From positions 368,791,132 to 368,855,131 of the forward strand of contig CM060900.1 of assembly GCA_030762935.1 (NCBI GenBank): 64,000 nt of DNA, written 5' to 3'. The notes beneath the pieces were generated by a model. The model was given only the letters and a program-made list of their open reading frames with translations, did not search any database and was not told the DNA's origin. The translations under genes were made by a program, and so were the position numbers. How positions within the stretch are numbered: the first letter of the stretch is position 1; each line of letters opens with the position of its first letter. This DNA is from Hymenopus coronatus. Lineage: Eukaryota > Arthropoda > Insecta > Mantodea > Hymenopodidae. Shown here in pieces: positions 37,671-63,052 of this stretch.

Positions 37671-38619
37671 AAACAAATACACACACTCACTCATTTGCTC
37701 TCCCATATGTTGTCTAAATATGCTTTATTGGACTGAGGGATCCTGAACACAAGTATTTCTGGTGAAATCTCAGAATCAAATTTTTGTGTGGAATACAACA
37801 CTTCCCCTGCTTGCTATATGTAGTTGAGAACCTAAAAACAAGATACATGCCCATGTGTGCATGGCTAAATTAAACATCCAATAAACATCAAACTTTATAC
37901 TTCATCAGTATAGCCCAGGTTTTTCTGTATGTTAAATTTAGAAACATTTACATAAATATGTAGTAAAGTGTGTAATGAATCAACGTATCAAATGTGTAAT
38001 TATAAATATATAACTTAAAATTACATCAGAGTTGAGACCTTAAATGAACAATAATCTATTTCACTTACCAGTCACCCCTCGTACCACCCTATTTATTGTT
38101 TTTATTACCTCTCATTCCTCCACAGTCATTATTTGAAAATTCTAATTTTTTAAATTATATGAATTTGTTAATCAGATAATGATGAACACAAATTCCAGTT
38201 TCACAGTTTTCATAAAAAGTATTTTGTGATTACATGAAATGATGAGGATTTTGGGACAGTGATGTATACTGTAAGTTAAGTATTGATTTGTGTCAATTGT
38301 AACACTTTTCCTTTAAAAATATTCAAATGAAATAGAAGAATATATAAAATGAACCCACATAGGCATACAGCAAAATATTTCACTTTTACTGGAAGAGTGT
38401 ATCACCAAAAATCTGGTCTGGTCATGGCAAACCCTCTATCGCCTTGATTGGTGGACTTATTTATGAGCACTATGGAGATAAGGGTCACCAAAGCATTCCC
38501 ATGGATGTTAAAAGTGTGGCACAGGTATGTTAATATTTTTGCCATGGTTCCTGGGTAACACGTAGAGAATGCAATGAAAGTTTTAAATATTCAGGAAAAG
38601 ATATTAAGCTTCACAATGG
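37671..38619. other. Intronic stretch, nothing recognised
   Basis: No recognised gene or repeat boundary between the family A fragment and the old Penelope-like element. Confidence 0.5.
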
Positions 38620-38945
38620 AGAAAGAAACAAATGGACACAATTGGCTCTCCTAGACTTGAAAATAATGAAAAATCACAACAAATTAAAATTTGGCGTACA
38701 CAGAAAACCTACTCGCTCCAATAACTACATCAAATGCAATCTATATCCCACCAGCATGCAGTAATTAAGTCTTGCACACAGATTAATCAACATACCAATG
38801 GACATGGATGAGTTTAACAGCAAAATAAAAAGCATAATTGAAACAGCAGAAGCTAATGGATTTAACAAACAACTAGTTCATAAAAAAATAAATAAAGCCA
38901 AAACAAATAAAACTCATCAAAGATACCAGCACCCTCACTACAAAC

Positions 38946-38956
38946 AAGGATGAAAA
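38946..38956. repeat. 11-bp target duplication, left copy (AAGGATGAAAA)
   Basis: Identical to 39682-39692; the two flank exactly the inverted Penelope pair. The old element reads continuously if the insertion and one copy are removed. Confidence 0.85.
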
Positions 38957-39681
38957 TTGAAATCTTGCAAATATACAAAGAAGCTTTTGACAGTGATGTG
39001 ATTAAATTAAAACAAAATAATTTGAGTCAGGTTTTGTAACATAAACATCACTTAGTAATTACTTACCGGGACTGGTATCAGGAACACTTGTTCCCATTTT
39101 CAACCCTTAATTCTGACTAAATCTTGCTTCCTTGGCGTCAACGGTGAGGGTGTTGGTGTATCAGTTGTGTAGGCATCTGGTGCTGGATCTATGAACTTCC
39201 AATGGTTGCTGTATGGTGGTAAATCGAAATTCATGATAATGGCTCTTTTTCTTCATGATGTAGATCTTCTCCCAGACATCTAATTCTTCTGTGTCACTTG
39301 TGGAGGCATCTGGTACTGGATCTATGAGCTTCCATAGGTTGCTGTATGGTGATAAATCAAAATTCACATGGCTCTTTTTCTTCATGATGTAGATCTTCTG
39401 ACACAGAATTAGATGTCTGGGAAAAAATCTACATCATGAAGAAAAAGAGCCAAATCATGAATTTTGATTTACCATCATACAGCAACCTTTGGAAGTTCAT
39501 AGATCCAGCAACAGATGCCTCCACAAGTGATACGGAACCATCCTCATTATTGACACCAACGAAACAAGATTTAGTCAGAATTAAGGGTGGGAATGGGAAC
39601 AAATGTTCGCGAAACTGGTCCCAGTAACTGACCACTAAGATGTGTTTGTATTACAAAAACCGACTCAAATTATTTTGTTTT
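38957..39681. mobile_element. Head-to-head pair of truncated Penelope-like 3' ends
   Basis: The left part (38957-39290) is a minus-strand Penelope 3' end starting at TTGAAATCTTGCAAATA, the same terminal base as the independent copy at 57879. It is followed by a second partial minus-strand unit (39291-39403). At about 39404 the sequence turns around and a plus-strand 3' end runs to 39681. Both outer ends are therefore element 3' ends. All units carry the coding end (LDVWEKIYIMKKKSH, then SNLWKFIDPATDAST) seen at 62.6 kb. Inverted and partial tandem units are a known habit of Penelope elements. The duplicated target shows they entered as one unit. Confidence 0.88.
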
Positions 39682-40160
39682 AAGGATGAAAAGTTCACAT
39701 TTAGGAAGTTCACATACCCCCTTTGGCATACAACAAGGTTTAAGAATATCTTCAGAGCTCAAATTATTTTCCTAGCACCTACAAGTAATTTCTCAGTGAA
39801 AAATCTCTTAAATTAAAAAATTAAAAATGAAGTCCTAACAGAAAATAGAGCAGGAATATACTGAACAAATTGTTTAGACCGTAAAAAATGTTATATAGGG
39901 AAAACTAAAAGAACTTTGGCAACTAGGAACAAGTAACATAGAATTAAAACAGGATGATAAATCAGCAGTGGCATGGCATTTTTGGAGAGAACATAACAAC
40001 ATAGAAAAGACTCCAATTTTATTAAAAGTCAGAGGAAATGGTTGGGAGTTAGAAACTTGGGAGTATACCCACATTCACATCAACAAGGAACAATTGATGA
40101 ATTCAGAAATCACACCTGGAGACATCTTTTTCCAGAAGTTCCTAAATCCTTAACCAGAGA

Positions 40161-41679
40161 TGTCTACTGCAACACCAGATAATCACAGCACCAGTAGTTG
40201 AAAAGTTTATAATGGTAGCAACTGGACTTCTGAAACATATCCTTGATTATGAAACAATGTAAATAATGGAAAGTGTTACAATCAACTCAAATCAACATCT
40301 AACTTATTTTATGATTACTTCAAATGTTATTCATAAAACATGTTAGACTATAAATAACTTAAAAAAAAAAAAAAAACAGCTTCTGCTTAAACAATAACTG
40401 AATTAATTGAGAATAAGTAGGTATGTAATGCAGAAAATTGTTTACCTCCTGGCATGGTGCACAAAAAGATATTTCCCCACATTTTCTGATTTAAATGACA
40501 TTTTGGATAACATCTTCTTGGATGAAGAAAATGATCTTTCATTTAAGATGTTGCAGGACTGTACTGGAAAAAGAGCATTCTTTCTGAAGATATGTCCTCC
40601 TGAAGCATATTTGATCTTGATCTTCAGTAGGCTCAGGTTACATTTACATCGATAGAACTTGATTTCTTGATGAGTGGCATTGTGAATGCACTTCATATAT
40701 GTTGTTCCACTTGTGACTTCATGGAACATTCATTTTCTTTTCACATACTTGATACTATAATTTTACCAGCTATCTTAACTCAATCATGTATCACAACAAA
40801 TGCTTTTCATTTTTCAGCAAGTGAAAATCTTATTCATACAATTATAGAATGACTCCCACTTTTGAATCTTTCCTGGTATCTCTGATTTTTCAGAGAAAAC
40901 TAAGTATTACAGGAACACACATGAAGTTTTAATGGTTTAAGTTGGACATCACTCATTGTTGATATATCATCAAATGTTTAAATCTTTGCAACTGCACATC
41001 AATAATACTTCATCTCAATTAAAATTTTAATTAGTAGCACTTCAAAGGAAGAAAATATTTGATAGGCAGAGAAAGAAAGAAAAAATAAATGTAATAAATA
41101 ATTGAGGAAATGCACTGTAAAATTCAATGGTAAGAGCTGGGTTGGTTCATCAATACTGCCAAATATTTATTTTATTTAAGATTGTACAAATATATAATAC
41201 ATGCCAAAATACATAAAAATAAGCTTAAGTAAGGTAATGTCCATGCTTAAATTTGTATTAATTATTGTTTGCATAGAATATGTAATTACATGAATATCTG
41301 AGCTCTACTCATCGGTAATGCAAGTGAAAGTTTTCAACGAGTTCTCCTACTGCAAACAGACCTGTACATACAGAAATATTAGTTCTTGTTTATTTTCTCA
41401 GAAATTACTTCTTCCTTTTTTAAATAGTATCATAAATAGTAAATATCAGATTTTTGCATGATAATATATGTATTTTGAATGCTAACAACCAGAAGATCAG
41501 AAGAAATAAAATGTTACTGGGAATATGAAAATCTCATTAAAATGTGCAGTTAGAATCAAACAAAAATGGATTATGCATTAATGGTTTAACAAATCATTGA
41601 GGTTAATTAGTGATTTTATTTTTGAACCAGTACATCACTTATTAATATCCTTAAAATTGAAAGTTAGAATATTTAATAT
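40161..41679. other. Intronic stretch, nothing firm
   Basis: Overlapping open frames on both strands at 40407-40729 show no domain. A 16-base A run lies near 40362. Otherwise empty. Confidence 0.5.
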
Positions 41680-57866: not shown

Positions 57867-57878
57867 ATGCTCTAACAA

Positions 57879-58389
57879 TTGAAATCTTGCAAATATGCAA
57901 AGAAGCTTGTGACAGTGATGTGATTAAATAAAAAGCAAAAGAATTTGAGTCAGTTTTTGTAACACAAACATCATTTAGTAATTGCTTACTGGGACCAGTT
58001 TTGGGAACACTTGTTCCCATTTTCCACCCTTCACTCAGATTAAATCTTGCTTCGTTGGTGTCAACGATGAGGGTGGTGGTGTATCATTTGTGGAGGCATC
58101 TGGCACTGGATCTATGAACTTCCAAAGGTTGCTGAATGGGATAAGTCAAAATTCATGATATGGTTCTTTTCCTTCATGATGTAGATCTTCTCTCAGACAT
58201 CTAATTCTATGTGTTTATATGCTGGTTTTAACAGTTTTTTCATGTCCTGATGTTCAAAAATGATAGGCAACACCTGATTTTTCTGTTTGCTTGTAATTTA
58301 GGTTTCTCATGTGTTCCTTTAATCTGGTTTCCAAACTTCTTTTTGTCCTTCCTATATAAACTAGATTACAGTCTGAGCATTTAATTTTA
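57879..58389 (-). mobile_element. 5'-truncated Penelope-like element with 12-bp target duplication
   Basis: A 511-bp minus-strand copy, flanked by ATGCTCTAACAA on both sides (57867-57878 and 58390-58401). It starts in the GIY-YIG domain (CSDCNLVYIGRTKRSL) and runs through the coding end to the 3' terminus TATTTGCAAGATTTCAA. That terminus is the same base as the left end of the 38957 insertion, which fixes the element's true 3' end. Several stops break the frame. Confidence 0.9.
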
Positions 58390-58401
58390 ATGCTCTAACA
58401 A

Positions 58402-61479: not shown

Positions 61480-62818
61480 CACCTTAAGATAAGATACTTT
61501 GATGTCACTTCCCTATTCCCAGCATCCCCATAGACAAACTCTGAAAACCTGGCTACAAAGCATAAACATACCTACAGAGGAAATGGAAGATCTTGTCCAG
61601 CTAACCAATTTATGTGTAAGACAGAACTACTTCACATTCAATAATAAATGTTATCAACAAACAACAGGGCTAGCAATGGAGAATCCTCTGTCACCATTCC
61701 TAGCTGACCTATACATGAGTAATTTTGAAACACACATCACTGAGGCATTCCCACATATATACAAAAAATGGTATAGGTATGTAGATGTCATCATCATAGT
61801 TCCAGAAAAACTCGTAAACAATGCACTCAAACTTCTTAACTTACAAAACAAGTCCATTCAGGTCACTTTAGAGACCGAACAGGAAGGAGTCCTACCATTC
61901 CTAGACATCAAAATAATAAGAACAGAAAAACATAACCTGACATTTGAAATACATAGAAAATCCACAAAAACAGATAACTATATAAAGTTTGATAGCTACA
62001 ACCCCACAACACACAAATATGCAGTCCTGAACAATTTAATGTATAGATTAGTACACATTCCCATGGAGAATAGTGAATACCAAAAAGAATACCAAAAGAT
62101 ACTCCAAACAGCAGTAGACAAGAGAATACATAAATACAAAAAACTGAACCGCATAACATGCACAACCACCCTACAGAACCTCAGTGACCAACCTCAGTTC
62201 AGAAAATTCACTTATCATCCTTGGGCACACAACAAACTTCAGAAAATCTTCAGGAATTATAACATCAACTTAGCTCCGAAAAACAACTACAGCATTCAGA
62301 AACTGCTGTGCAGAAATTTAAAAGATCCTATCCCTGCAAACAAAAAACTGGGAATTTATGAAATTAAATGCTCAGACTGTAATCTAGTATATATAGGAAG
62401 GACAAAGAGAAGTTTGGGGGCCAGATTAAAGGAAAACATGAGAAACCTAAAATACAAGCAAATAGAAAAATCAGCTGTTGCCTATAATTTTTGGACACCA
62501 GGACACGAAATCACACTGAATATAAAACTGTTAAAACCAGTGTATAAACCCACAGAATTAGATGTCTGGGAGAAGATCTATATCATGAAGAAAAAGAGCC
62601 ATATCATGAATTTTGATTTACCACCATACAGCAATCTCTGGAAGTTCATAGATCCAGCAACAGATGCCTCCACAAGTGATACACAACCACCCCCATTGTT
62701 GACGCCAATGAAGCAAGATTTAGTCTGAATTAAGGGTTCCCGAAACCGGTCCCAGTAAGTAAAAAGTAGTGATGTTTGTGGTTCAAAAACCGACTCAAAT
62801 TCCTTTGTTTTTTATTTA
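61480..62818 (+). mobile_element. Penelope-like element, 5'-truncated in the reverse transcriptase
   Basis: The largest Penelope copy in the window. It begins in RT motif A (YFDVTSLFP near 61496-61520), just after a purine microsatellite, and ends in a 3' segment whose sequence (CCGACTCAAATT) is shared with the copies at 39 and 58 kb. It lacks their last roughly 48 bases. No clear target duplication is visible. Protein wording matches the 38957 and 57879 copies, so all are one subfamily. Confidence 0.87.
61499..62728 (+). CDS. Penelope-like RT (C-terminal part) and GIY-YIG endonuclease
   Basis: 409 codons without a stop. Residues about 45-85: NKCYQQTTGLAMENPLSPFL, the RT motif B region; about 95: WYRYVDVIIIV, the catalytic motif where Penelope enzymes read Tyr-Val-Asp-Asp, so the second Asp is Val here. 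About 120-150: VLPFLDIKI. About 290-330: the GIY-YIG nuclease with LGIYEIKCSDCNLVYIGRTKR, including Arg of the R-x-x-x-R part. The first residues are out of frame: motif A sits in the neighbouring frame just upstream, so a one-base shift lies near 61520. The annotated start ATG is therefore artificial. The nuclease motif appears intact, the RT is not. Confidence 0.85.
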   Translation: MMSLPYSQHPHRQTLKTWLQSINIPTEEMEDLVQLTNLCVRQNYFTFNNKCYQQTTGLAMENPLSPFLADLYMSNFETHITEAFPHIYKKWYRYVDVIIIVPEKLVNNALKLLNLQNKSIQVTLETEQEGVLPFLDIKIIRTEKHNLTFEIHRKSTKTDNYIKFDSYNPTTHKYAVLNNLMYRLVHIPMENSEYQKEYQKILQTAVDKRIHKYKKLNRITCTTTLQNLSDQPQFRKFTYHPWAHNKLQKIFRNYNINLAPKNNYSIQKLLCRNLKDPIPANKKLGIYEIKCSDCNLVYIGRTKRSLGARLKENMRNLKYKQIEKSAVAYNFWTPGHEITLNIKLLKPVYKPTELDVWEKIYIMKKKSHIMNFDLPPYSNLWKFIDPATDASTSDTQPPPLLTPMKQDLV

Positions 62819-63052
62819 AATACTCAGTTATTTCGGTATAACAATTAGAAAAAAAAATTGGTGGGCATTTGTATGACTTTCCCTTTTCACTCAACAAGCA
62901 ACTCTTAATTGTATTCTATCATCTCTTGTTAATACAGGTGAACCTTCACTACTCGTTTCCTTGTATGTATAAGAAGAATACAATATGTTAAAGGATAGTC
63001 AAATCTTTTCAAAGGAAGTTATTATGGCTTATAAATTCTGTCTTCTTTGTAG
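62819..63052 (+). other. Intron end before the last candidate exon
   Basis: AT-rich; ends with the pyrimidine-rich acceptor TGTCTTCTTTGTAG. Nothing else recognised. Confidence 0.5.

Follow-up and report, generated by a model that had tools for sequence, protein, structure and literature searches.

Head-to-head Penelope-like insertions in one genome: a 725-bp composite and the pairing of tailed with tail-less 3' ends

In LINE-1 twin priming, reverse transcription is primed on both strands of the target, the copy is partly inverted, and a single duplication surrounds it; its two parts derive from neighbouring stretches of one RNA. In the rotifer Adineta vaga, Penelope elements carry inverted pseudo-LTRs and insert head-to-head, and the same account mentions flies and fish; it describes inverted repeats in head-to-head orientation, one of which bears a tail, with an 8-10-bp duplication, and the sections of its text considered here do not give the number of tails per composite (PMC3846280). 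The Poseidon Penelope protein of Anolis carolinensis cuts and extends both target strands in vitro, initiating synthesis at two neighbouring internal sites, which delimit the tail (PMC11167929). For Penelope insertion, the relevant parts of the 2013 paper propose self-priming (PMC3846280), and those of the 2024 paper report priming by both strands without joined products (PMC11167929). The main text of a 2026 Drosophila virilis paper does not contain the word "tail" (PMC12910113). Among titles and the beginnings of abstracts we found neither a strict rule of complementary starts nor counts of tails per composite, although these may be in print elsewhere.

The window analysed here is a stretch of 64,000 nucleotides (G000:C21:368791132-368855131) in a 3.13-Gb genome. 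A 725-bp insert at 38957-39681, enclosed by exact 11-bp repeats, is made up of three pieces of one Penelope-like element. Element coordinates refer to a search frame built from window positions 61493-62560 and the left arm itself, so that the left arm's own 3'-end coordinates are fixed by construction; in this frame 1392 is the distal 3' end and about 1340-1360 the proximal 3' end. The features of the locus are as follows.

38376-38956, plus strand: target to the left of the insertion, an older Penelope-like ORF broken by frameshifts and stops; it covers the reverse transcriptase part and some sequence past it.
38946-38956, no strand: left copy of the target duplication (TSD), 11 bp, AAGGATGAAAA; from exact repeat, target alignment and flank comparison.
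38957 to about 39287-39290, minus strand: left arm, element 3' end with tail (distal, coordinate 1392), 5'-truncated near 1057-1062.
38957-39008, minus strand: tail of the left arm, about 52 nt, without counterpart in the right arm.
About 39290-39399, minus strand: middle partial unit, element coordinates about 1079-1192, oriented like the left arm.
39400-39403, no strand: inner joint of middle unit and right arm, a few bases without clear assignment.
About 39404-39681, plus strand: right arm, tail-less element 3' end (proximal, about 1340), 5'-truncated near 1057-1062.
39682-39692, no strand: right copy of the target duplication (TSD), 11 bp, AAGGATGAAAA; from exact repeat, target alignment and flank comparison.
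39693-40192, plus strand: target, remainder of the older Penelope-like ORF including its GIY-YIG part.

Both arms point their element 3' ends outward, and the insert carries just the last part of the Penelope ORF and the 3' end. Inverted arms, 140, 99, 80 and 48 nt long, link the units. A preliminary description of this DNA had proposed a 725-bp insert between 11-bp repeats, with an additional partial unit in its centre, and both features are borne out. It had also called both outer ends element 3' ends; they are, but they are not equivalent: the left has about 52 terminal nucleotides that the right does not. The same tail of about 52 nt is common to 20 aligned tailed ends.

A related copy at 61493-62819, whose 3' end the arms match, has a 411-codon open stretch in which a GIY-YIG endonuclease part comes after a reverse transcriptase part. 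The ORF at 61493-62725 scores below the Pfam cut-offs for both domains (18.9 bits against 29.6 for RVT_1, and 16.6 against 22.6 for GIY-YIG), and its homologue P0002 scores above both, in the same order. Three properties of endonuclease-containing Penelope-like elements are present: reverse transcriptase then GIY-YIG in one ORF; an optional short 3' tail, seen as two classes of 3' end; and pseudo-LTR repeats with a short TSD, found for the inverted form in 36 composites. A fourth, a hammerhead ribozyme motif in the pseudo-LTR, was sought with Rfam: no family of any kind reached its gathering score in 30000-64000, nor did any hammerhead appear at a relaxed threshold on 38900-39720, and a decayed motif is possible. 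The relaxed search on the palindrome returned mostly microRNA and snoRNA models at scores below their cut-offs, which we put down to the self-complementarity of the palindrome.

Other elements lie nearby. The copy at 61493-62819 is itself tail-less, and a flanking repeat was looked for and none found. A lone tailed copy of this family, 5'-truncated and outside any composite, occupies 57879-58389 between copies of a 12-bp TSD, ATGCTCTAACAA, at 57867-57878 and 58390-58401. A remnant transposase at 60674-61144 matches DDE_Tnp_1_7, which we take to be a piggyBac-type Pfam family, at 43.5 bits against a cut-off of 22.4.

The 11-bp sequence AAGGATGAAAA occurs just twice in the window with both strands checked, and about 0.07 occurrences are expected from base composition. 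When the flanks are joined with one repeat copy and no insert, residues 330-426 of P0002 align in one frame at 48% identity, as the preliminary description's view of the target as an older Penelope would have it. The 11 bp fall within this aligned stretch. Because the in-frame alignment spans the joined site, the repeats are target sequence and not part of the element, which would have told against the description. Together with the alignment of the composite and the flank repeats, the in-frame joined target supports its claim of insertion as a single unit with a target duplication.

The arrangement recurs. We count 36 head-to-head composites, the 725-bp insert and 35 others in the same genome, and they come from several searches. 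For the first sample, 40 of 3,881 candidate places were scored and the 39 beyond the 725-bp insert were fetched, 57877-58390 of the window among them; 18 of these 39 loci are head-to-head pairs with both outer ends near the element 3' end. The second sample used an internal query without tail, and six of the 22 places fetched are head-to-head pairs. One composite, L070, came from a separate search with a tail-less query, and at least ten new ones were read by eye among the matches listed for a 2,015-base query with tail (about 50 bases); ten from these enter the count. Six loci were not counted, since the outer end of the second arm is internal (L011, L015, L022, L029, L037 and L066), nor was L048, whose partner is cut by the locus edge. 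L066 resembles LINE-1 twin priming, its coordinates 1014-1392 and 858-1011 adjoining, as does G000:C9:59519583-59520803, where inverted pieces have adjoining element coordinates. At G000:C9:53614648-53615451 a tail-less plus copy and a tailed minus copy touch at their 3' ends; this is opposite to the usual layout and could reflect insertion beside an older copy's end.

Head-to-head landing is therefore common for this Penelope family in this genome, and the 725-bp insert taken singly is ordinary. The preliminary description had implied that so intact a capture is rare, and here it did not hold up: besides the 35 other pairs, the arrangement is described in the published rotifer account, in the part considered (PMC3846280). 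Among the 42 matches listed for a 180-bp internal query, 23 have the same score of 276 bits, which suggests one young amplified subfamily. L064 and L065 (G000:C21 near 213.89 and 212.72 Mb) are one Penelope insertion with flanks 99.5-99.8% identical, and therefore lie in a duplicated genome segment.

Flanking repeats were examined in 25 composites and L070. A repeat of 9-14 bp flanks both arms in 14 of these 26, the 725-bp insert included, with one mismatch in three of the 14. For scale, random 28-base stretches of the window share at least 9 bases in 17 of 4,000 draws; the composite comparison used about 52 bases and allowed mismatches, which makes chance matches somewhat likelier there. The other 12 of the 26 have no clear flanking repeat, for which age may or may not be the reason; the longest match at L070 is 6. 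An 11-bp repeat suggested at L019 sits inside the element and was discarded. Read by eye, the composite flanks show a candidate target motif, roughly GTT or ATT, adjoining both cuts. The two arms meet, with a gap of -17 to +9 bp, in 19 of 25 composites, and the inner coordinates of paired arms lie 22 to 1,037 nt apart in 23 of 25.

This variety of inner coordinates bears on whether the palindrome could be an independent mobile unit, pre-formed and then copied or moved whole. Its outer ends are constant in type, as such a unit would require, and the left and right arms of the 725-bp insert break at nearly the same element position. Among the 40 scored out of 3,881 places, however, no second copy of the whole composite was seen, in keeping with the preliminary description; the best other alignment, at L009, scores 455 bits against 1,348 and has a different interior. 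We regard a pre-formed unit as very unlikely. A terminal-inverted-repeat DNA transposon was rejected on the same absence, and also on the inner coordinates, which differ between composites, and on the arms, which are the end of a Penelope ORF.

The informative signal is an asymmetry of the ends across many copies, which had gone unnoticed in the preliminary description. The outer ends fall into two classes, a distal or tailed class of 51 (45 at 1392 and six at 1380-1391) and a proximal class of 33 at 1340-1360; none lies at 1361-1379 and three lie at 1306-1324. This count includes both L064 and L065, which are one insertion, and leaves out L070. Exactly one end is tailed in 34 of the 36 composites, neither in two, and both in none. 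The 34 comprise the 725-bp insert, all 18 of the first sample (three of which have the other end at 1306-1324), five of six in the second sample, L070, and nine of the ten from the matches listed. The two without a tailed end are L051, where a flanking repeat was looked for and none seen, and C18:7717849-7718662. All 14 composites with a flanking repeat pair one distal with one proximal end.

The query for the first sample contained the tail and so favoured tailed arms; this cannot explain the absence of pairs with two tails. Under independence, the chance that all 18 partners in that sample are tail-less is 4e-5 to 1.5e-2, depending on tail frequency and on how selection is modelled. Outside the tail-selected sample there are 17 composites (the second sample, L070 and those from the matches listed), of which 15 are one-tail pairs, giving P<=0.0012 under independence at any tail frequency. 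Of the copies for which no partner was recognised, 6 of 14 in the second sample carry the tail (a duplicate entered once, one truncated copy omitted), as do, by eye, 9 of 26 among the matches listed, where partners may be missing and three of the 26 recur in the second sample. Folding of the 20 tailed ends gave an 8-bp stem around the proximal start; none of its 12 pairs has a compensatory change, and the stem was dropped as evidence. The tailed end of the left arm of the 725-bp insert folds no better than shuffles (z -0.75).

The pairing bears directly on two further explanations. Two successive, independent insertions at one place are conceivable in that Penelope does insert into Penelope, as in the target of the 725-bp insert. 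But a single duplication encloses both arms, when a second event should usually leave a duplication of its own between the arms or around one of them, and should not yield the single tail per pair that is seen in 34 of 36 composites; we consider this account barely credible. In self-priming, an antisense transcript or cDNA would fold back and prime its own copying, and the resulting hairpin would be inserted. This is the specialist proposal for head-to-head Penelope copies, as set out in the part of the 2013 paper considered (PMC3846280), and head-to-head palindromes with an excess of sharing between arms would follow from it. On our reading, a fold-back copy should reach the end of its own template and so produce like outer ends, whereas the ends differ in 34 of 36 composites, and the one-tail rule disfavours self-priming on that reading. 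The middle unit of the 725-bp insert, moreover, shares none of five variants with the right arm, and a snap-back origin for it was rejected. Self-priming thus appears unlikely, and the rule favours priming by both target strands over it.

Sharing between arms was assessed with CpG-like columns omitted. Paired arms share non-consensus bases at 0.342 against a shuffled mean of 0.123, and none of 500 shuffles was as high, which supports a common source of both arms. At L041 the arms differ by 1.1% and have 22 of 23 non-consensus bases in common; over the columns compared, no other copy in the set comes closer than 95% identity. For many older composites the partner arm is no closer than some other copies, and the arms of the 725-bp insert share 3 of 20 variants (rank 99 of 156), no more than random pairs. 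A single RNA template for both arms is possible; the same pattern would come from two RNAs transcribed at one locus or within one young subfamily. In the 725-bp insert the left and right arms break at nearly the same element position, with GACACAG before both, and left-right pairs drawn at random from other composites come within 3 nt of each other in 3 of 576; as the coincidence was noticed post hoc, it is a lead only, hinting at a shared truncated or rearranged template.

With direct repeats outside two outward-facing 3' ends, the 3' end of either target strand runs into the antisense strand of an arm, as expected when a cut with 3' overhangs is primed from both sides. We therefore think that the insert is probably one Penelope-like retrotransposition event, primed from both sides of a staggered target cut. 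We infer that the element endonuclease would cut the two target strands at positions 11 nt apart and leave 3' overhangs, and that each target 3' end would then prime reverse transcription on element RNA: from the distal start, tail included, on one side, and from the proximal start, about 50 nt further in, on the other. Copying would halt after roughly 300 nt. The left cDNA would jump template once to give the middle unit, the two cDNAs would join 5'-to-5', and fill-in of the overhangs would yield the 11-bp duplication. The observation reported in the preliminary description is confirmed, and its interpretation partly supported. Against priming from both sides stand the 12 of 26 composites without a clear repeat, the two tail-less composites and the unshared variants in the 725-bp insert.

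More tentatively, two-ended insertion could be the standard reaction of one particle, in which one RNA bound by a two-subunit enzyme provides two starts, one for each end of the cut target; we give this rather less than even chances. If true, the distal and proximal starts would be complementary partners rather than independent alternatives, and the reading would explain both the zero two-tail composites in 36 and the private variants shared at L041. Two polymerases in file on one RNA should leave the tailed arm shorter, and this "no overtaking" prediction of a simple one-RNA model did not hold: among 23 composites the tailed arm is shorter in 10, longer in 12 and equal in one.

Published accounts already describe inverted repeats of which one may carry a tail; the strict one-tail pairing did not turn up among the titles and abstract openings considered, and may be in print elsewhere. 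LINE-1 twin priming gives adjoining, non-overlapping pieces, whereas here both arms of all 36 composites reach the element 3' region, and both arms of the 725-bp insert cover the same coordinates, about 1062-1340. In the part of the Adineta vaga account considered, a full element is joined to an inverted repeat (PMC3846280), whereas our composites mostly consist of two truncated arms; here the tail measures about 52 nt, and counts are possible because one genome contains many copies. Thousands of candidate copies turn the "optional tail" into a testable rule of one distal and one proximal start per two-armed insertion. As with Anolis Poseidon, extension of both strands and two adjacent starts would explain tailed and tail-less ends (PMC11167929). 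The sections of that study considered describe no joined two-ended products and saw no difference in start site between strands, which counts against the preferred reading (PMC11167929); here the arms are joined, and paired arms nearly always differ. The one-tail rule gives a precise prediction for the in vitro Penelope system.
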